This document shows positions 31,108 to 59,159 of a stretch of 64,000 nt of DNA, in pieces. The stretch is from positions 1 through 64,000 of the forward strand of contig CALCCA010000089.1 in assembly GCA_937899725.1 (NCBI GenBank), given 5' to 3'. A program made the position numbers and the translations under genes. The stretch comes from an uncultured Halomicronema sp. (GTDB lineage: Bacteria > Cyanobacteriota > Cyanobacteriia > Phormidesmidales > Phormidesmidaceae). The stretch's first letter is position 1; each line of letters begins with the position of its first letter. Under the pieces are notes generated by a model. It saw only the letters and a list, made by a program, of their open reading frames with translations, was not told the DNA's origin and ran no database searches.

Positions 31108-33561
31108 ATGGTTTCTTTCCCATCCAACCATCCGACCGGTCATTCTGAAGAAACTGTATCTGGTTCAAGCGCTGCCGTTTCCCCATTGGCTTCTATTCGT
31201 AATCTGCAGTTTTCGCGTAACTTGGTGGCTCGTCTCGTTGTGGGTGGGACGGCACTAGTGGTTGGGGTTGCAGCCTACTTTAGCTATCAGGTTGTGCGCA
31301 ACACCACTCTGGAAAACCTGAAGGAAAACGCTTTACTGACGGTAAATACTGGCGTAGACACAATTGACCAATGGATCGCTCTGAGAAAATCTGAGTCAGC
31401 AGCACTGGCCAATCTACCCGCCACCCGCACAATGGATTGGGCCGCAATCAAGCCGCTTTTTCAGGAAGAACGCGATCGCCTCAATAGCTTTAGCCCGGGC
31501 TTAGGGATTGTTTATCCCGATGGTGCCTACTTCAATTTAAGAAAAAACGGCGATAACTCTAACCTGGGCGATCGGCCCCATGTCAAAAGTAGTCTGGCGG
31601 GCACAGCTAGCGTACAAGATCCGGTCATTTCGCGTATTACCGGTGAACCTGTCGTTGTCTTTTCTTCCCCCATTTGGTCAGGTCCCGTTAGCGCTAGCAC
31701 TAGAGAACCTGTTGGTGTCTTAAATGCATCTATCGGGATTGAGCAAATTACCGAAGTGGTTCAAAGTTTGGCGTACGGAACAGGCAGCTATGCCTTTGCC
31801 CTTAATTCCCAAGGTGAAGCAATTACCCATCCTGATACCAACTTGATGTCTAATCTGGATCGACCGGCTCCCAGCTTAGCGGCAGCGACCGATCGCGAAT
31901 TAGCCAACATTGCCCAACAAATGGTTGCCCGTCACCGGGGTATTGAGAAAACGATCATTGATGGGACTGAACAATACGTCGCCTTTTTGCCTCTTACAGA
32001 AGCCAATTGGTCGGTTGCGCTTGTCATTCCTCGTGACAATATCGAATCGAAACTACGGCTGCTCGATGGCATTGCCTTGATTGTCTTGGTGCTAGCAGGC
32101 ACACTCATTGGGGTTCTGGTGTATGTGCAATCCACTGAGCAAACCCGCCTGAAACAATCTAAACTGGCTGCTGATGCCGCCAACCAGGCCAAGAGTGAAT
32201 TTTTGGCCAACATGAGCCATGAACTCCGCACGCCCCTCAACGGCATCTTGGGCTATGCGCAAATTCTCAGTCGCTCAAGAACCTGGGGCGAAAAAGAACA
32301 GCACGGAACTCAAGTCATTTATCAATGTGGCTCTCACCTGCTGACATTGATAAATGATGTATTGGATCTCTCCAAAATTGAAGCTCGTAAACTAGAGCTT
32401 GTGCCCCAAGCTCTGCATCTTCCCTCTTTTCTACAAGGCGTCGTCGAAATCTGCCGCATCCGGACAGAACAAAAAGCTATCGAGTTTCGCTACGAACCAG
32501 ATGCCGATTTGCCCGCCGGAATCACAGTTGACGAGAAACGACTGCGACAGGTATTGATTAACTTGTTGGGAAACGCGATCAAATTTACCGATCGCGGCCA
32601 TGTGACCTTGCGAGTAAATCGCGTTGCCGAGGATGTTGACCAAACGGTACGACTCCGGTTGTCTGTCGCTGATACGGGTGTTGGTATTGCCTCAGACGAT
32701 CTCCGCAAGCTCTTTCAATCGTTTGAACAAGTGGGCGCGCAAAGTCGCCAATCCGAAGGTACGGGACTAGGGCTAGCCATTAGCCAGCAAATTGTTCAAC
32801 TGATGGGGAGCCGCATTCAAGTCAAAAGTGAGCCGGGTGTGGGTAGCGATTTCCACTTTGAGGTTACCGTCCCCTTAGCCGCCGATTGGAGCCAACAGCA
32901 GACTGCCTCAATTGGCAATATTGTGGGTTATGAGGGAGAACGGCGTCACATTCTCGTCATAGACGATCACTGGGAAAATTGCGCCGTCCTGGCTAACTTA
33001 CTGGAACCGCTGGGTTTCCAAATTAGCAATGCACAAAATGGTCAGGAAGGCTTAGAAAAAGCAGCTCAGCTCAACCCTGATTTGATCATTACCGATATTG
33101 TCATGCCCATGATGGATGGCTTTGCGTTTCTCCAGCAACTCCGGGCTGATGCCCAACTGAGTCAACATGTCGTTATTGTTTCATCGGCATCGGTCGCCCA
33201 AGCCGATCACCAGATGAGCTTAGATGCCGGTGCCGATGACTTTTTAGCGAAGCCTATCCAAGCAGAGAAATTGTTTGGCTTACTGCAACAGTATCTGACC
33301 CTCACCTGGATCACCGAAACGGCAGCACCGCTAGAGGCGGTAGCCCCTGTGACTCCGATGGCAATAGTGATGCCTCAACGAACTGATCTAGAGCATCTCC
33401 TGATGCTGGCTCGGCAAGGTCGTCTGAAGAAGCTAATAGCAGAGGCCGAACAAATTCAGGGGCAAGATGATCGCTATCGGCCCTTTGTCCAAGAGATCTT
33501 GCCGTTAGCAAAAAGATTCCGGGCCGATAAAATTGTGCAGTTCATCGAATCCTATCTCTAA
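31108..33561 (+). CDS. membrane hybrid histidine kinase with dCache sensor
   Basis: 817 aa. Two membrane helices (about 42-62 and 320-341) flank a periplasmic sensor domain of dCache type with [12 protein letters not shown] at its end. Then come HisKA ([17 protein letters not shown], His371), HATPase ([27 protein letters not shown]) and a REC domain (Asp663 in [12 protein letters not shown]). The C-terminal 60 residues ([20 protein letters not shown]) are a helical extension often found on such kinases. It senses an extracytoplasmic signal. The gene downstream follows after 14 nt and is its likely partner. Confidence 0.92.
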
Positions 33562-33575
33562 AGGTCTCTAAAGGT

Positions 33576-34892
33576 ATGGTCATGGACACAGTACTAACTG
33601 GATTAGTTCTAATCGTGGATGATATGCCAACCAATATCGAGGTTGTTTCAGAAGCGCTAGAGACGGCAGGGTTAGAAGTAGCGATCGCCCTCAGTGGCGA
33701 ACAAGCCCTGGAACAACTTCAGTACAGTCGACCTGACTTGATTCTGCTGGATGTGATGATGCCCGGAATCAACGGCTTTGAAGTCTGTCAACGACTCAGA
33801 CAGTCACCGTTAACCCAGCACATTCCCGTGATATTCATGACCGCTTTAGCCGATACAGACAATCGCGTCAAAGGCTTAGAACTGGGAGCTGTTGACTATA
33901 TCACCAAGCCGTTTGAAGAAAGAGAGGTTTTAGCACGGGTCAAAATCCAATTGCGACTGAGTCAACTCACGAACCAACTGGAACAACAAGTTCAAGATCG
34001 CACCCAAGCACTTCAGCAGGCGCTGGCTCAACTCCAAGCTTCTCAGGTGCAACTGATTCAAAGCGAAAAAATGTCTGCTTTAGGCAATTTAGTGGCAGGT
34101 GTCGCGCACGAAATCAATAACCCGGTCGGCTTCCTCCATGGCAGTATCGATAATGCTAAAGACTATATCCAAGATTTACTGGATTATATTGCTCTCTATG
34201 AAGAGCATCATCCAGATGCTGCCACCCTGGTACAGGATAAAGCCGCAGAGATTGATCTGGAGTTTTTGAGTGAAGACCTACTCAAGCTAGTGGGTTCAAT
34301 GAAAAAAGCCTGCGATCGCATTGAAGACATCAGCACCAGCCTCCGGACCTTCTCCCGTGCCGACACGGCATGCAAACTCACAGCGAATCTGCACGAAGGT
34401 CTAGATAGTACGCTGCTAATCCTGAAGTATCGCCTCAAGGCAAATGAATATCGTTCGGCGATCGCCGTCATCCAGAATTATGGCGAGATTCCAGCGATTG
34501 ACTGCTGTCCTGGACAACTCAACCAGGTGTTTATGAATCTGTTGGCAAATGCAATCGATATGTTTGATGAGGCTGCTCAACAGTCATCGCTTGCTCAACT
34601 TGAAGACACGCCTCAGCAGATCACAATTCAAACAGCGGCAACGAATACTGAAGTGCTCATCAGTATCAAAGACAACGGTAAAGGTATGTCTGAAGAGTTG
34701 AAGGCCAAGGTATTTGACCATCTGTTTACCACAAAAGCCGTCGGGAAAGGGACCGGGTTGGGATTAGCGATTGCCCGTCAAATTGTAGAAGAAAAGCATG
34801 GTGGTAGTTTGGTGCTGCAGTCAGAGCTGGGGCGAGGGACTGAGTTCTGCATTCGATTACCGATCATGGATTGCGCAACGGATGCTGTATGA
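33576..34892 (+). CDS. response regulator-histidine kinase
   Basis: 438 aa. An N-terminal REC domain (Asp59 in LILLDVMMPGINGFEV) is joined by a coiled coil (about 125-165) to a HisKA domain whose H-box reads GNLVAGVAHEINNPVGFLHG (His178), then HATPase ([22 protein letters not shown]). It lacks a sensor domain of its own. The preceding hybrid kinase gene ends 14 nt upstream, and the two probably form a phosphorelay operon. No output domain is seen. Confidence 0.9.
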   Translation: MVMDTVLTGLVLIVDDMPTNIEVVSEALETAGLEVAIALSGEQALEQLQYSRPDLILLDVMMPGINGFEVCQRLRQSPLTQHIPVIFMTALADTDNRVKGLELGAVDYITKPFEEREVLARVKIQLRLSQLTNQLEQQVQDRTQALQQALAQLQASQVQLIQSEKMSALGNLVAGVAHEINNPVGFLHGSIDNAKDYIQDLLDYIALYEEHHPDAATLVQDKAAEIDLEFLSEDLLKLVGSMKKACDRIEDISTSLRTFSRADTACKLTANLHEGLDSTLLILKYRLKANEYRSAIAVIQNYGEIPAIDCCPGQLNQVFMNLLANAIDMFDEAAQQSSLAQLEDTPQQITIQTAATNTEVLISIKDNGKGMSEELKAKVFDHLFTTKAVGKGTGLGLAIARQIVEEKHGGSLVLQSELGRGTEFCIRLPIMDCATDAV

Positions 34893-38626: not shown

Positions 38627-40330
38627 CTATGCGTGACTCACTTTTGGCCAAGTAAAGGCAAAGGTACTGCCTGCGCCGATCGCTGAGGTGACGCTCGCCT
38701 GGCCGCCTTGCCGCTCCACTAGCTTTTTCACAATACTCAGTCCGATGCCGGTACTCTCAACATCATCACGGCTTTGGAGCGTTTGAAACACCTTAAAGAT
38801 GCAATCGTGGAATTCTGGGGCAATGCCCGGCCCGTCGTCTGAGATGGCAAATTCGATCCAATTTGCCTGAGGTTCGGCAGTGATGCGAATTTCACCGTCG
38901 GCCCGATCGTGATACTTGACCGCATTGCCAATCAGATTGGCGAGCACTTGCTGCAGCAAAATCTTTTGGGTGTGAACAACTGGCATCACCTCCGGAATAA
39001 CGATTCGAAACTCAGGAGCCAGCGTCAAAGATGAACAAATTTCGTGAATGAGCTCACGGGTATCAACGGCAACAGTATCTAGGTTTTGACGGCCGGCCCT
39101 GGAATATTGCAGTAAGCCATTAATAAACCCTTCCATGCGGAGAATCCGCGATTGCATCAGGGCTAGCTGCTGCTGGTTTTCCTCCGGCAGCTGACCTTTC
39201 AGGTCTTCTTCGATCCAGCCAGCCAGGTTCGAGATCGCCCGCAGCGGTGCTTTCAAATCATGGGAAGCGACCGAGGCAAACTCGTCCAGTTCTCGATTGC
39301 GAATCGCCAATGTTTCCGTTGTTTGGCGTAAGGTCTCATTGATGGCCGCTAAGCGACTGGCCCGCTCTTCTAGGCTGGAGAGCAGTTCGCTTTTTTGAAT
39401 GGCGATCGCCACCTGGACGGTGAGGTCATCCAACAAAGAGAGATCACCGGCTTGCCACTCTTTCGGGGCGCGACAGTTATGGGCAATTAATAAACCCCAA
39501 AGCTTGAGCTGATTTGGGGTGCTCATGTCCGACAACAGAATCGGTACGACGATGTTCGCCTTCACCTGAAACTGTTCTAACAATTGCATATGACAAGGCG
39601 AGAGGTGAGAGTCGTAGATATCGGGGATGACGGTTCTGTGGCCTTGCCGATAGTGATCAGTTCCCTGCTGTTGAAAGCAGGTATCGACAATATTGGTGCC
39701 CAGGCTGACTCGCCACTCCGGCAGCACGGACTCGGCTAAAATCGTGCCGCTCATATCGGTTTCAAAGCGGTAGATGATGGTGCGATCGCACTCTAGAAGG
39801 GCTCGCCCGCCTTCAACCGTGACCTGCAAAATGTTTGCTAGAGACTGTAGCTGACTGATTTTTAGGGCAATCTCAGCGAGCAACTGCTGCTGTCGTTGTT
39901 GATGGGCGAGCTGTTGTTGTAACAGCCGTTGGGTGAGCGATCGCCGAATCGTTTGCTCTAACTGTTCTGCTGACAGCTTGCCTTTAATCAGATAATCTTG
40001 AGCACCCAGTTTCATGGCCTCAACCGCCACCTGCTCGCTGCCCTGCCCTGTGAGCATAATCACGGCTGGCAGTGTCGCCCCACTGGCCTGCATAGTCTGC
40101 AAAAACTCTAACCCATCTAGGTCTGGCAGCAGATAATCCAACAACACGACATCAGGCTGATGCGCGGCAAATTTTTCTAATCCGACTTCGCCACAGTCAC
40201 CTTCCAGGATTGAGCAGCCAAAAACGCGAGATTGCTCAAGATAGCGGCGATAGGTGGCTCGATCAACATCAGAGTCATCCACGATCAAAATCTTGCACGC
40301 CATGCCGGCAGTGTTACATGTCTGATACAT
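38627..40330 (-). CDS. REC - cyanobacteriochrome GAF - histidine kinase
   Basis: 567 aa. REC (Asp65 in VVLLDYLLPDLDG) and a glutamine-rich coiled coil (130-165) precede a bilin-binding-type GAF (about 165-315), then HisKA (FASVASHDLKAPLR, His357) and HATPase. The GAF carries the canonical Cys246-His247 in LSPCHMQLLEQFQVKANIVV and an Asp-Thr-Cys-Phe motif (216-219, Cys218), the DXCF pair used by two-cysteine cyanobacteriochromes. The start CDRTIIYRF is also typical. I infer a photochromic light sensor, probably of the violet/blue-green class; colour cannot be read from sequence. ATG at 40330, alternative 40303. Confidence 0.85.
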   Translation of the reverse strand: MYQTCNTAGMACKILIVDDSDVDRATYRRYLEQSRVFGCSILEGDCGEVGLEKFAAHQPDVVLLDYLLPDLDGLEFLQTMQASGATLPAVIMLTGQGSEQVAVEAMKLGAQDYLIKGKLSAEQLEQTIRRSLTQRLLQQQLAHQQRQQQLLAEIALKISQLQSLANILQVTVEGGRALLECDRTIIYRFETDMSGTILAESVLPEWRVSLGTNIVDTCFQQQGTDHYRQGHRTVIPDIYDSHLSPCHMQLLEQFQVKANIVVPILLSDMSTPNQLKLWGLLIAHNCRAPKEWQAGDLSLLDDLTVQVAIAIQKSELLSSLEERASRLAAINETLRQTTETLAIRNRELDEFASVASHDLKAPLRAISNLAGWIEEDLKGQLPEENQQQLALMQSRILRMEGFINGLLQYSRAGRQNLDTVAVDTRELIHEICSSLTLAPEFRIVIPEVMPVVHTQKILLQQVLANLIGNAVKYHDRADGEIRITAEPQANWIEFAISDDGPGIAPEFHDCIFKVFQTLQSRDDVESTGIGLSIVKKLVERQGGQASVTSAIGAGSTFAFTWPKVSHA

Positions 40331-40379
40331 CTTTAGGGCATTGAGGTATCCCCAATTGTGGACTTTTGCTGGAGCTTAA

Positions 40380-40401
40380 AGCTCTACCTTAGGGTAGAGC
40401 T
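40380..40401 (-). terminator. weak terminator or processing hairpin between light-sensing genes
   Basis: AGCTCTACC (40380-40388) pairs with GGTAGAGCT (40393-40401) around TTAG. On the minus strand only TTTAAG follows, so termination after the response regulator gene would be partial. Confidence 0.4.
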
Positions 40402-40435
40402 GCCGATGAGAGGCCTATCGTTGTTGGGTAACCGC

Positions 40436-40888
40436 TCAAACCGTCGTCGGCAGCACCGCGACTTTGAACCAATAATCGACGAGGAGTTGCACCGATGTCT
40501 TGAGCTGCTCGATATTGGTCGGCTTGACCATATAGCTGTTGACCCCAAATTGGTAACAGGTGTGAACATCTTTGGGGCTAGAAGAGGTCGTCAAGACCAC
40601 CACCGGAATCTCTTTTAGCTGTTCGTCTTGTTTGATTTCCATCAGCACTTCGCGACCGTCGGTGCCCGGCAGGTTGAGATCTAACAAGATCAATCCGGGT
40701 AAGTCGGTGGCACTAAGGTCGGTATATTGGCCGGTTTGGTGCAAAAAATCTAAAGCTTCATCGCCATCCGTACACCGAGTTAGCGGCATGGCAATATTGC
40801 AGGTCTTGCGTATGATCCGACCGAACGCTTCGAAATCTTCGTCACTATCCTCGACCACCAATAAGGAAGGATACCGTCTCTCAGTCAT
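40436..40888 (-). CDS. rcpB: phytochrome-partner response regulator
   Basis: 150 aa, a single REC domain of the Rcp1 type: acidic pair EDSDEDFEAF, Asp70 in LILLDLNLPGTDGREV, Thr in VVVLTTSSSP and Lys in YMVKPTN. There is no output domain. Its ATG at 40888 overlaps the phytochrome stop codon by 8 nt (ATGACTGA), so translation is coupled and the pair is almost certainly kinase and receiver. By analogy with CphB-RcpB of other filamentous cyanobacteria I use the name rcpB. Confidence 0.88.
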   Translation of the reverse strand: MTERRYPSLLVVEDSDEDFEAFGRIIRKTCNIAMPLTRCTDGDEALDFLHQTGQYTDLSATDLPGLILLDLNLPGTDGREVLMEIKQDEQLKEIPVVVLTTSSSPKDVHTCYQFGVNSYMVKPTNIEQLKTSVQLLVDYWFKVAVLPTTV

Positions 40889-43235
40889 GCTGATGGCCCT
40901 TTAAGGTGAAGTAAAAAGTGCTCCCCTCACCATATACGGAGTCGATCCAAATTTGCCCGCCGTGACGCTCGACAATTTTTTTGACAATAGTCAGACCGGC
41001 CCCAGTGCCGCCACCGTAGCGATTTTGAGCATGCAGCCGCTTAAAGATTCGAAAAACAGACTCGATGTGTTTGGGCCGAATGCCCATGCCATTGTCTCGC
41101 ACCCAAAAGACGTTGGCAGGGGGCAGCACACCGGCCGGCACAGTGACGTGCCCAGCGCGGATGATCTCAGCCGCTGTCAGACACCCAATTTTGATGACCT
41201 TTTCATCACTCGTGTTGTATTTAATGGCGTTGCTAATCAGGTTGGTAAACAACTCGGTCACTTGGGTGGAGTCGCACTCAACCAGCGGCAATGGCTGAGG
41301 TAGCTGAAAATTGACCTGCTCTGGTTTACTGATTTTGATGACTTCAATGACGTCTTCCACTAAGGCTCGCAGATCAACTGGCGTGATTTGCAAATCGGTG
41401 CGCCCCAGTCGGGAGTAATGCAAGAGCGAGTTGATCAAATTTTCCATGCGTTGCGTGAGGCGCATGAGGGTATTGAGTTTATCGACCCCATCTTGGCCCA
41501 GTTGGTCGCCGTAGTCCTCGATCAAAAAGCTGGAATAGTTGTGAATGCCCCGCAACGGTTCCTTTAAATCGTGGGAAGCCACATAGGCAAACGAGTCTAA
41601 CTCCAGGTTGCTGCGTTCTAGCTGAGTGTTGAGTTGGGTCAACTCATCCGCCTTTTGCAGCACCAAGCCAACGACCATACTTCTCAGCTCTACGGCGGCT
41701 TCGATCTCATGCGATTGCCACGGCAAAGCGGCTTGATGCACCACCTCTTGCCATTTCTCAAATGATTTTCGCGGTGACATCCTGACTTGACCAGTGGCAT
41801 CGATTTCTTGGGGTTTGTGCGGCGCTCCAGCCCAATCAACCGTTTGAACGATTTCTGGACGCAGCCAAATCATATAGATTTGCTGCACCTGTGAAATTGA
41901 GATTGCTAGCAAGCCGCTGCTGGTATCACTGAACTCAGCCGCTGGGGGATAGCGATCGCTGAGGCGAGCAGTGTGATAAACCACATCACTGGCCAATTGC
42001 TGGCTAAGCCAATCAATTAAGGGCCACAATGCCGATTTATCTGGGGTTTGCCCGATTAGGGTCACTTCGCCTTGGTCACACAAGACCGCCCCAGTCGCAT
42101 TCACCAAACCGAGGAGTCGCTCGGCATCTTGAGTGAGGACATGCCGTAAGGAGTCATTGTGGGCAAAGGCTTCCACAAAACTAGCCTGTAGCGCCCGAGT
42201 CTGCAGGCGACTATCAACGTCTTCACTTTCTTGTCGGTTGGACAACTCCAGGCCGACAACCTGTCCCAAAAATTCACAGATTGAGCGCAACTCATGACTC
42301 AGCTGGCGCGGTTGTGGATGGTGGCACGCGATCAACCCCCAAAGGGACTGATTTTGCATTAAGGAAATCGACATAGAAGCCTGAATGCCCATATTGGCCA
42401 GATATTCTGTATGCAGCGGTGACACGCTGCGCAGATAGGATAGGCTCATATCGAGCGGGGTGTAGGTAATAGGATGGCGGTCGGGCACAATCGCCACTGG
42501 CTCGTAGCTCGCATCAGGAATCAACCTTAATAGGTTGAGGAGGTAGAGGTACTTTACCTGCTGGGGGATATCCGTCGCTGGGTAATGCAAGCCTAAATAA
42601 GGCTCTAAATCATCGCGCTTGGCCTCAGCGATTACGTGACCGGAGCCATCTTCGTCGAGCTGATAAACCATCACGCGGTCAAAACCAGACACCGCTTGGA
42701 TGACCGTTACCGCCGTTTGACACAGTTCGGCCAGGGTACGAGTCCGTTGTATTTGGCTGATCGGACGCTTGACCGATTGATAAAAATCGAAAAAGTTGAC
42801 TGATTCTGTAGCTTCAGCCGGTTCCAGTTCGATCACAATATTGTCGTCACTGCGATGAACCACCCCGGCAAAAGGGCGCGTTGCAGCCCCTGAAGTGAAG
42901 TCAAAGTGCAAAGGATTAATCGCTTCAAAATTTGCGGCTAAACACTGCTCAATGAGCTGAATCTGATGGAGTTCAAACAGCTCAGAGGCTGGCTGATTGA
43001 GCAAGGCTTCGATCGGTTTGCCCAAGTATGCTTCAACATTGGCACTGACCTGCACGATGGACCAATCGGCCTCATTGATCACCACCAATGCTCCATGAGG
43101 TTGAATCGCCGCTGGAATATGGATGGGCTCGCGATCACAATTGTTGAGATCTACCCTAGTCGCCGAAATCTTTGCATCCGTAATTTCGGCGATCGCGGCT
43201 TTTGTCTGAGCAATTAATTCTGTAATCGACATCAA
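40881..43235 (-). CDS. cphB: biliverdin-type phytochrome histidine kinase (CphB-like)
   Basis: 784 aa: PAS (about 25-140), GAF (about 150-335), PHY (about 345-525), HisKA (FAYVASHDLKEPLRG, His555) and HATPase (NLISNAIKYNT, DNGMGIRPK, GGGTGAGLTIVKK). Cys33 in VDLNNCDREPIHIP is the biliverdin-binding site of bacteriophytochromes. The GAF position that carries Cys in Cph1 is Leu274 (SPLHTEYL). The Asp of the DIP motif (HYPATDIP, Asp222) and the tongue motif PRKSF (488-492) are present. I conclude that it binds biliverdin, unlike Cph1, and senses red/far-red light. It is followed by its receiver with an 8-nt overlap. Confidence 0.92.
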   Translation of the reverse strand: MMSITELIAQTKAAIAEITDAKISATRVDLNNCDREPIHIPAAIQPHGALVVINEADWSIVQVSANVEAYLGKPIEALLNQPASELFELHQIQLIEQCLAANFEAINPLHFDFTSGAATRPFAGVVHRSDDNIVIELEPAEATESVNFFDFYQSVKRPISQIQRTRTLAELCQTAVTVIQAVSGFDRVMVYQLDEDGSGHVIAEAKRDDLEPYLGLHYPATDIPQQVKYLYLLNLLRLIPDASYEPVAIVPDRHPITYTPLDMSLSYLRSVSPLHTEYLANMGIQASMSISLMQNQSLWGLIACHHPQPRQLSHELRSICEFLGQVVGLELSNRQESEDVDSRLQTRALQASFVEAFAHNDSLRHVLTQDAERLLGLVNATGAVLCDQGEVTLIGQTPDKSALWPLIDWLSQQLASDVVYHTARLSDRYPPAAEFSDTSSGLLAISISQVQQIYMIWLRPEIVQTVDWAGAPHKPQEIDATGQVRMSPRKSFEKWQEVVHQAALPWQSHEIEAAVELRSMVVGLVLQKADELTQLNTQLERSNLELDSFAYVASHDLKEPLRGIHNYSSFLIEDYGDQLGQDGVDKLNTLMRLTQRMENLINSLLHYSRLGRTDLQITPVDLRALVEDVIEVIKISKPEQVNFQLPQPLPLVECDSTQVTELFTNLISNAIKYNTSDEKVIKIGCLTAAEIIRAGHVTVPAGVLPPANVFWVRDNGMGIRPKHIESVFRIFKRLHAQNRYGGGTGAGLTIVKKIVERHGGQIWIDSVYGEGSTFYFTLKGHQHD

Positions 43236-43451: not shown

Positions 43452-43478
43452 AAAAAAAGGCGACACTTCAGTGTCGCC
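43452..43478 (-). terminator. strong terminator of the small protein gene at 43521
   Basis: GGCGACAC (43459-43466) and GTGTCGCC (43471-43478) with loop TTCA; on the minus strand it runs into seven T (43458-43452). Confidence 0.85.
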
Positions 43479-44786: not shown

Positions 44787-45980
44787 TTAAGATTCTGGCA
44801 AAATCAGTGGCAAAATCACCGTAAAGGTAGACCCTTGATCGACTTCAGAAACCAATTCGATTTGCCCTTCCATCAGATCGACAATGCTGCGAACAATGGC
44901 TAAGCCTAATCCGGTGCCCGCGATCGCTCGGGTTTGTGAGCTAGAGCGAGCGTATGGATCAAAAATCAGCGATCGGGCGTCTTCCTCAATGCCGATCCCG
45001 GTATCTGTTACCTCGATTTCCCAAAACGCCGCATCCCTCTGGCGACAGACTACTCGAATACTCCCCTCTTCGGTATAGCGAATCGCATTACCCACTAAGT
45101 TAGTGACCAACTGCTGCACTCGCAGGCTATCTGTCATCGCCAAAGGTGGAGCCTGGGTGACATTGATTGATAGTTCAAGGTTTTTTTCAGTAGCTAAAGG
45201 TCCCAAACCGTCTTCGATGATTTCCTGAATCAAACTCCCAACTGACGTTGGGACAGGATTGAGTGTGATCTGGCCTTGGTTATAGCGGGATATTTCTAGC
45301 GTATCGTTAATAATCTGTAGGAGCTTTCGCCCATTTCTCAAAACTCGCTCAATCTGATCGAGATTAGTTGTTGTATCTTTCTCATTGAGCTTCTTGCGCT
45401 GTTTTTGAAGCAATACGCTAGAGTGGCCAATAATCGAAGTTAGTGGTGTTTTAAGTTCATGGGCCATATAAGACAAATTATCTTTATGAGCTTGAACTAG
45501 ACGAGTCAGCTCTTGATTGGTTAAAGTCAGCTGGCCCTGCATTTGCCGTAATTCCACCAAACGAGATTCGATGTAGCTCTCCATACTGGCCGTAATCACT
45601 TCATCAAAAACCTGATCAATTAGCCGGACAGACTCTAAGACTTCTCTGGCAGAGCCCGACAGTAAGTCAGGTTCAAGAACGATTAAAACGACTTGGCGAA
45701 GGATGCGATATTCCCTAACGATCTCCGCCGTATCGTAGCCTTGCTCAGCTCGAACAGTACCGTGATGTAGGCTTTTATTTTCTAATTCTTCTTCATTGCC
45801 AGGCAGCCTAGGTGAAAGGAGCCCTGCCAACGCCTCAAGCACCTTCGGCAGGCTATTTCTGACGGACTCATAAGCCAGTTTTTTAGCGCTTTCGATTTCT
45901 GAGTCTCGATAGACCGCTTCGATCCATCTTTGAGTAATAATTTCGACGTTATCTTCTAAAGCTCGACCGAGGTCGTTCAT
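44787..45980 (-). CDS. histidine kinase with RsbRD-like N-terminal domain
   Basis: 397 aa. The N-terminal 130 residues (LGRALEDNVEIITQRWIEAV, then YRILRQVVLIVLEP) resemble the four-helix sensor domain of stressosome-type RsbR proteins. A short coiled coil leads to HisKA (NLSYMAHELKTPLTS, His174) and HATPase ([29 protein letters not shown]). There are no membrane spans, so it senses something in the cytosol. It stands alone, converging with the small protein at 44257. Confidence 0.87.
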   Translation of the reverse strand: MNDLGRALEDNVEIITQRWIEAVYRDSEIESAKKLAYESVRNSLPKVLEALAGLLSPRLPGNEEELENKSLHHGTVRAEQGYDTAEIVREYRILRQVVLIVLEPDLLSGSAREVLESVRLIDQVFDEVITASMESYIESRLVELRQMQGQLTLTNQELTRLVQAHKDNLSYMAHELKTPLTSIIGHSSVLLQKQRKKLNEKDTTTNLDQIERVLRNGRKLLQIINDTLEISRYNQGQITLNPVPTSVGSLIQEIIEDGLGPLATEKNLELSINVTQAPPLAMTDSLRVQQLVTNLVGNAIRYTEEGSIRVVCRQRDAAFWEIEVTDTGIGIEEDARSLIFDPYARSSSQTRAIAGTGLGLAIVRSIVDLMEGQIELVSEVDQGSTFTVILPLILPES

Positions 45981-58004: not shown

Positions 58005-59159
58005 CTACCCTTTAGCCGGTAGATAAAGGGTGAATGTACTCCCTTGCTTCAAAGCTGACGTCACGTCAATCAGGCCCCCATGCATTTCCGCAATCCGGCA
58101 GCATAAATGTAGCCCTAAACCGCTGCCCGAGCGCCGCTGGTCACCTTGACGAAACCAATCAAAAATCTCCATTTGATCCGCTTCAGAAATCCCGATACCC
58201 GTATCAATCACCTGAAGCATCAGCCACGGTGACTGGTCGGCATCGTGATTATTGAGCAGTTGGTGGTCTGGGCCTTGCTGCGAACAGCTGATTTGAACGA
58301 AGACATGACCTTGGTCAGTAAATTTCAGGGCATTGCCCACCAAGTTTGTAATCACGCGACGCAGCTCAATCACATCACCCTGCATTGCATAGGGGGTAGC
58401 GTCAGCAACGGGATTGCCGGAGCGATCGCCCATTTTGAGCGTCAATTGCTTCTCATCGGCGAGGGGCTTTAACGTATTCACCACATCAGTCGCGATATCA
58501 CACAAATTGAGCGCCGTCATGGTGAGAGACTTGTGCCCTGCATCATGGCGATAAACCTCTAGCAAGGTATTCACCATATCGAGCAGTTGCTGATTATTTT
58601 GAATCGTTTCTGTGATAGCCTCCTTGGCGTCCTTCGCCACCTGCCCGAAGGACTCATTCTTGCAGAAGGTCAACATGCGGTTAGCGGCGACTAACGGCGT
58701 TCTCAGATCATGGGTCAGTCGCGCCACAAAATCATCGCGTTGACGAATCATGTAGGATTGCCCATCCATCGCGGCTTTCATGCGCAACAGCGATCTCACT
58801 CGGGCCTGTAACTCTTCAATATCAAAAGGTTTACGGATAAAATCATCAGCCCCGGCGTCTAAACCTTCTACCAGACTCACATGGTCATGGGCCGTGAGCA
58901 GCAGGATAGGAATATAAGGCAGCTGGGTAGCCTGGCGGATTCTTCTCGTCACCTCATAACCATCCATGCCCGGCATCATGATGTCCAAGAGGACTAAATC
59001 GGGTGGGGAGGCCTCGATCCTGGTTAGAGCTTCTTTGCCACTTTTAGCGGAATCTAAGTGATATTCATCGTCATCCAAAACCGTTTCAACCAGGAAAAGG
59101 TTGTCAACAGAATCATCAACGGCAAGAATTTTTTTGGCCTGCATCATATCATTCGTCAT
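58005..59159 (-). CDS. response regulator-histidine kinase
   Basis: 384 aa: REC (Asp59 in LVLLDIMMPGMDGYEV), HisKA with FVARLTHDLRTPLVAANRML (His150), and HATPase with NLVGNALKFTD, DTGIGISEA and GSGLGLHLCCRIAEMHGG. No membrane span or sensor domain. Input presumably comes by phosphotransfer from another kinase to REC. ATG at 59159, 70 nt upstream of the flavoprotein frame's end on the same strand. Confidence 0.88.
   Translation of the reverse strand: MTNDMMQAKKILAVDDSVDNLFLVETVLDDDEYHLDSAKSGKEALTRIEASPPDLVLLDIMMPGMDGYEVTRRIRQATQLPYIPILLLTAHDHVSLVEGLDAGADDFIRKPFDIEELQARVRSLLRMKAAMDGQSYMIRQRDDFVARLTHDLRTPLVAANRMLTFCKNESFGQVAKDAKEAITETIQNNQQLLDMVNTLLEVYRHDAGHKSLTMTALNLCDIATDVVNTLKPLADEKQLTLKMGDRSGNPVADATPYAMQGDVIELRRVITNLVGNALKFTDQGHVFVQISCSQQGPDHQLLNNHDADQSPWLMLQVIDTGIGISEADQMEIFDWFRQGDQRRSGSGLGLHLCCRIAEMHGGLIDVTSALKQGSTFTLYLPAKG

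Follow-up and report, generated by a model that had tools for sequence, protein, structure and literature searches.

The window analysed here, a stretch of 64,000 nucleotides from an uncultured Halomicronema sp., contains three minus-strand genes for light signalling (Table 1): a phytochrome histidine kinase, a receiver, and a histidine kinase fronted by a receiver (REC) domain and a GAF domain. The first-pass annotation had placed these genes in a row with an 8-nt overlap between the first two; all three lie where it put them, their domains are confirmed by profiles, and the overlap is present at 40881–40888. A gap of 105 nt separates the receiver gene from the kinase gene and encloses a stable hairpin (z −2.4), so that the third gene is not certain to share the transcript. 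Since a terminator-like hairpin with a T tract lies upstream of the phytochrome, the cluster probably has its own transcript start. On the far side of this hairpin is an RsbRD_N histidine kinase (44787–45980, minus strand). The listed start of the phytochrome gene is a TTG at 43235, and an in-frame ATG at 43232, which has AGGA seven bases upstream, is the likelier start. Elsewhere in the window, the gene of a dCache-HisKA-HATPase-REC hybrid kinase and, 14 nt behind it, that of a REC-HisKA-HATPase kinase (31108–34892, plus strand) form another pair of a sensor kinase and a REC-fronted kinase. A further REC-HisKA-HATPase protein is encoded at 58005–59159 (minus strand), and REC-fronted kinases are numerous in the genome.

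Table 1. Positions of the genes, domains and hairpins of the phytochrome cluster in the window.
Feature	Position	Strand	Basis
CphB-type phytochrome, PAS-GAF-PHY-HisKA-HATPase	40881..43235	−	Domain profiles, structure match, residues
RcpB-type receiver, one domain	40436..40888	−	Response_reg profile, overlap with phytochrome gene
REC-GAF-histidine kinase, PPHK-type dual-sensor	38627..40330	−	Domains, DXCF (DTCF) and SPCH, PPHK match
Front REC of kinase	39926..40330	−	DD/D60/T/K intact; DRxxYRRYL alpha-1 helix
GAF of kinase	39341..39925	−	Second Cys (DTCF) and canonical Cys-His
HisKA-HATPase output kinase, DHp HDLKAPLRAISNLAGWI	38627..39340	−	Without C-terminal REC
RcpB–kinase intergenic stretch	40331..40435	−	Perfect 9-bp hairpin AGCTCTACC/GGTAGAGCT, weak T tract
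Terminator-like hairpin and T tract, upstream of phytochrome	43459..43478	−	Sequence

The phytochrome matches the PAS_2, GAF, PHY (E = 2e-56), HisKA and HATPase profiles in the order PAS-GAF-PHY-histidine kinase, and its best match among solved structures is a full-length bacteriophytochrome, aligned over the whole length (E = 2e-180). Its N-terminal extension carries NCDREPIHI at the position of the biliverdin cysteine, and its GAF domain reads SVSPLH, which places Leu where PCB-type phytochromes carry Cys; the DIP and PRxSF motifs are intact. These residues support a biliverdin-type class with predicted red/far-red sensing. Both residue states were described correctly at first, namely a biliverdin cysteine and no GAF cysteine, but the number Cys33 is likely to become Cys32 with the start at ATG 43232. 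The gene directly following encodes a single-domain receiver with an intact acceptor Asp, and we take the two proteins to belong to the CphB and RcpB families. The biliverdin Cys, the absent GAF Cys and the adjacent Rcp-type receiver are shared with CphB–RcpB pairs and cyanobacterial bacteriophytochromes. No difference from CphB–RcpB pairs was found, and the window pair is an ordinary member. NCBIfam gave no equivalog above cut-off for the phytochrome, the receiver or the kinase protein. Heme oxygenase and PcyA are present in the same genome. Outside the window, this genome also holds a cluster resembling those of far-red photoacclimation (FaRLiP-like; G000:C87, L344 and L261), in which a REC-DNA-binding-REC protein (646 aa), a phytochrome with a partial PHY match (858 aa) and a small receiver (162 aa) follow the published rfpB-rfpA-rfpC order. 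The neighbours of this cluster include extra PsaA and PsaB, a D1/D2-type reaction-centre protein and three phycobilisome proteins, and the organism is probably capable of far-red light acclimation.

The third protein (567 aa) matches REC, GAF, HisKA and HATPase profiles and contains the H, N and G boxes of the kinase. By residue scoring, its front REC retains the acidic pair, D60, T and K. The GAF domain carries the residues of a DXCF cyanobacteriochrome, with the DTCF and CH cysteines of the first-pass annotation found as C218 and C246 (SPCH), and the residues support the chromophore classes predicted for both photosensors. The canonical Cys and the DXCF second Cys are shared with cyanobacteriochromes of the TePixJ and Tlr0924 type, and members of the dual-Cys class as a rule convert PCB to PVB by isomerisation and have a blue/green photocycle (PMC11284453). 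As compared with the TePixJ/Tlr0924 type, the window GAF lies between a REC and a kinase, and its colour is predicted from residues; it probably senses blue/green.

Compared by sequence with solved structures, the kinase protein first retrieves 6OAP, a ‘dual sensor histidine kinase’ (E = 7e-71; REC and GAF). The AlphaFold model of the protein has a mean pLDDT of 83 and a pTM of 0.50, the latter leaving the domain arrangement uncertain; with this model, the first six Foldseek matches are 6OAP, 6OAQ and 6OB8 (41–42% identity). These entries represent PPHK, the phosphorylation-responsive photosensitive histidine kinase from Leptolyngbya sp. JSC-1, whose kinase takes input from both light and REC phosphorylation (Shin et al. 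2019, PNAS, doi 10.1073/pnas.1910855116). Control of the logic-OR type by these two inputs is regarded as a trait of PPHK-type kinases. PPHK is red/green, with Pg at 562 nm (PMC11480761). In 6OAQ, the REC of PPHK was crystallised with BeF3−, a phosphate mimic.

Our comparison reveals that the window kinase, at ~41% identity, shares with PPHK a REC-GAF tandem sensor that long helices connect to a histidine kinase, as well as a REC that is catalytically competent by its residues. The two differ at the second-Cys position, which reads EDQYF in PPHK and VDTCF in the window kinase; PPHK is therefore without a second Cys, whereas the window kinase falls into the dual-Cys colour class and departs from a red/green GAF with the canonical Cys only. 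Such a GAF is probably not defining for the wider PPHK-type family and, judged by its residues, the window kinase is a colour variant within the PPHK type, a kind already known. Furthermore, most PPHK-like relatives comprise 800–1400 aa and usually end in a C-terminal REC, which the shorter window kinase lacks. LvrB-type Rec-controlled histidine kinases (PMC13269768) likewise possess an N-terminal REC whose phosphorylation gates the kinase, but they have no photosensory GAF and belong to another lineage. A literature search on such phytochrome–kinase clusters found nothing closer than PPHK. No sampled genome yielded the PPHK locus of JSC-1 itself (best match, 67–69% identity), and the nearest relatives of PPHK have the same gene order as the window locus.

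The gene order extends well beyond this locus. For 77 cyanobacterial phytochromes of the genome sample, we inspected the flanking DNA and typed the neighbours with profiles made from the window's own domains. An Rcp-type receiver lies next to the phytochrome in 68 of the 77 loci, and the full order of phytochrome, Rcp and REC-fronted kinase (hereafter, triad) occurs in 56; some of the other loci are contig ends. A search of 390 genomes gave 56 PPHK-like REC-GAF matches, of which 21 lie 0.5–1.5 kb downstream of a phytochrome on the same strand; among the best 15, 12 do so. A scan of the genome contigs yielded mostly partial or kinase-domain matches. The triad order is thus widespread among cyanobacteria and kept across distant families, a recurrence that argues against chance as the cause of the cluster. 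The window locus and those of G244, G155, G225, G230 and G238 group as a single clade, with support of 100 in the phytochrome tree and 98 in the GAF tree, indicating joint inheritance of the three genes. In a genome of the same genus (G003), the phytochrome and RcpB are retained at 62% and 72% identity, and all that is left of the kinase is a 47-residue remnant of its C-terminus (residues 517–563, 70% identical; L127:6486–6626) directly after RcpB, marking the kinase as the dispensable part.

The state of the front REC differs between proteins inside and outside the triad. Its catalytic residues are complete in 55 of 55 scorable triads, compared with 46 of 68 REC-GAF proteins outside (Fisher 4e-7, a statistic that ignores relatedness, the losses being partly non-independent). 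REC intactness changes at least 15 times on the GAF tree, and every dead REC lies outside the triad. A pairwise sign test of linkage versus intactness on supported branches points in the expected direction, with six usable pairs being too few for significance. Among six short REC-GAF-histidine kinases outside the triad (about 560–610 aa), five have dead RECs (G007, G218, G370, G359 and G063) and only that of G077 is intact. In G007, the acidic-pair and acceptor positions read IDGS and LLLS, with loss of the acceptor Asp and one acidic partner, although both GAF cysteines are retained; no canonical phytochrome was found in this genome. The REC of G359 is dead despite a phytochrome elsewhere in the genome. 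As counter-evidence, one REC that adjoins a phytochrome in a locus lacking Rcp (G029, L128) is dead. Most RECs of this subfamily that front kinases away from a phytochrome are intact, some of them in genomes with no canonical phytochrome match (G206, G102 and G198), and other phosphate donors must therefore exist. The REC-GAF-kinases at L101, L304, L306, L307 and L310, none with a phytochrome neighbour, have degenerate receivers in which the acceptor Asp or other catalytic residues are lost. The DRxxYRRYL receiver signature was considered as specific to phytochrome neighbours and rejected, since unlinked kinases carry the same signature.

Conservation within the triads is uneven. The DHp helix of the phytochrome has a mean pairwise identity of 0.86 over 17 residues and the alpha-1 contact helix of the REC one of 0.64, compared with 0.52 for the DHp of the REC-fused kinase, which exists in at least four types (HDLKAPLRAI, HELRSPLNPILGW, HEYRSPLA and HDLNNILTPI). 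That alpha-1 is kept while the fused kinase is swapped argues against the latter as partner of the REC, which would then be expected to change along with it. In triads with the GAF directly after the REC, a dual-Cys GAF accompanies 23 of 28 biliverdin-type and 1 of 11 PCB-type phytochromes, and the window triad is of the common biliverdin/dual-Cys type. Co-evolution of the two was considered (raw Fisher 4e-5) and rejected: the biliverdin and PCB types separate once on the tree, so the colour pairing is a description rather than evidence of selection. The triad GAFs of L154, L156 and L165 carry an insert of ~19 residues directly after the second Cys of DXC (e.g. DPCLAENYLRFSRPE...).

We favour, with some reserve, a two-colour module in which the phytochrome would phosphorylate both RcpB and the front REC, and the REC together with the light state of the GAF would set the activity of the attached kinase. 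The biliverdin-bound, red/far-red phytochrome would autophosphorylate in a light-dependent manner and pass phosphate to RcpB and to the front REC of the third protein. This REC would serve as an input domain whose phosphorylation state is combined with the light state of the DXCF GAF next to it, for which phycocyanobilin or phycoviolobilin and a blue/green response are expected. Both states could act on the kinase via the long interdomain helix, as in PPHK, and the output kinase may signal to RcpB or to an unlinked regulator. The colours, the sign of the response and the output target are assumed by analogy. The authors of the PPHK study reportedly suggested that the phosphorylation comes from an upstream photoreceptor. 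We infer that the phytochrome is the donor to the REC, as is favoured indirectly by the difference in REC intactness together with the swapped kinase domain; the BeF3−-bound REC of the homologue counts as support for phosphorylation as an input. The first-pass proposal that the phytochrome kinase sets the phosphorylation of the second sensor gains indirect backing from the conserved triad, the intact RECs, alpha-1 and 6OAQ, but it is not new in kind, given PPHK; as a reading of the sequence it is plausible. What is added here concerns this member's colour class, how widely the gene order occurs and the decay of receivers outside triads.

Alternatively, the two kinases might meet at RcpB, both phosphorylating or dephosphorylating it, with the front REC being no substrate of the phytochrome. 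The position of RcpB between the kinases, the regular presence of an Rcp gene next to the phytochrome and the related HDLKxPLR type of both DHp domains in the window would fit such a hub. However, most other triads combine an unchanged Rcp with an unlike second-kinase DHp (HELRSPLNPILGW, HEYRSPLA or HDLNNILTP), and a shared RcpB leaves the constant intactness of the REC in triads unexplained, so that we consider this arrangement unlikely.

It is improbable, in our assessment, that the front REC serves its own kinase as a feedback or sink domain. Hybrid kinases often transfer phosphate intramolecularly, REC and kinase lie in one chain, and many proteins away from phytochromes keep intact RECs; against this stand the alpha-1 helix kept despite the swapped kinase domain, the separate C-terminal REC that many relatives have too, and several non-triad members in which the REC has decayed and the kinase remains. 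We give an equally small chance to the view that the genes stay together but serve independent light pathways and do not cross-phosphorylate. Clustering by itself is no proof of interaction, the kinase proved dispensable in G003, and G007 and others retain the kinase without a phytochrome, but the gene order kept by distant families and the pattern of REC intactness speak against independence.

The locus is a good example of combined colour signals and no new kind of system. Our comparison suggests that the crystallised PPHK, red/green and without a second Cys, is a minority colour variant in a family that mostly has dual-Cys GAFs beside biliverdin phytochromes. Cyanobacterial photosensors have mostly been studied singly, and the triad allows a test of whether one photoreceptor passes phosphate to another of a different colour, with the dead-receiver members and the remnant gene of the sister species as natural controls. 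As a tentative generalization, to which we give somewhat less than an even chance, the triad may represent a relay general to cyanobacteria: the phytochrome would be dedicated to donating phosphate to a second photosensor, whose receiver decays once unlinked, and the usual form, as in the window, would pair a biliverdin red/far-red phytochrome with a dual-Cys blue/green sensor. If this relay reading is true, a single kinase would compare far-red/red with blue/green light.
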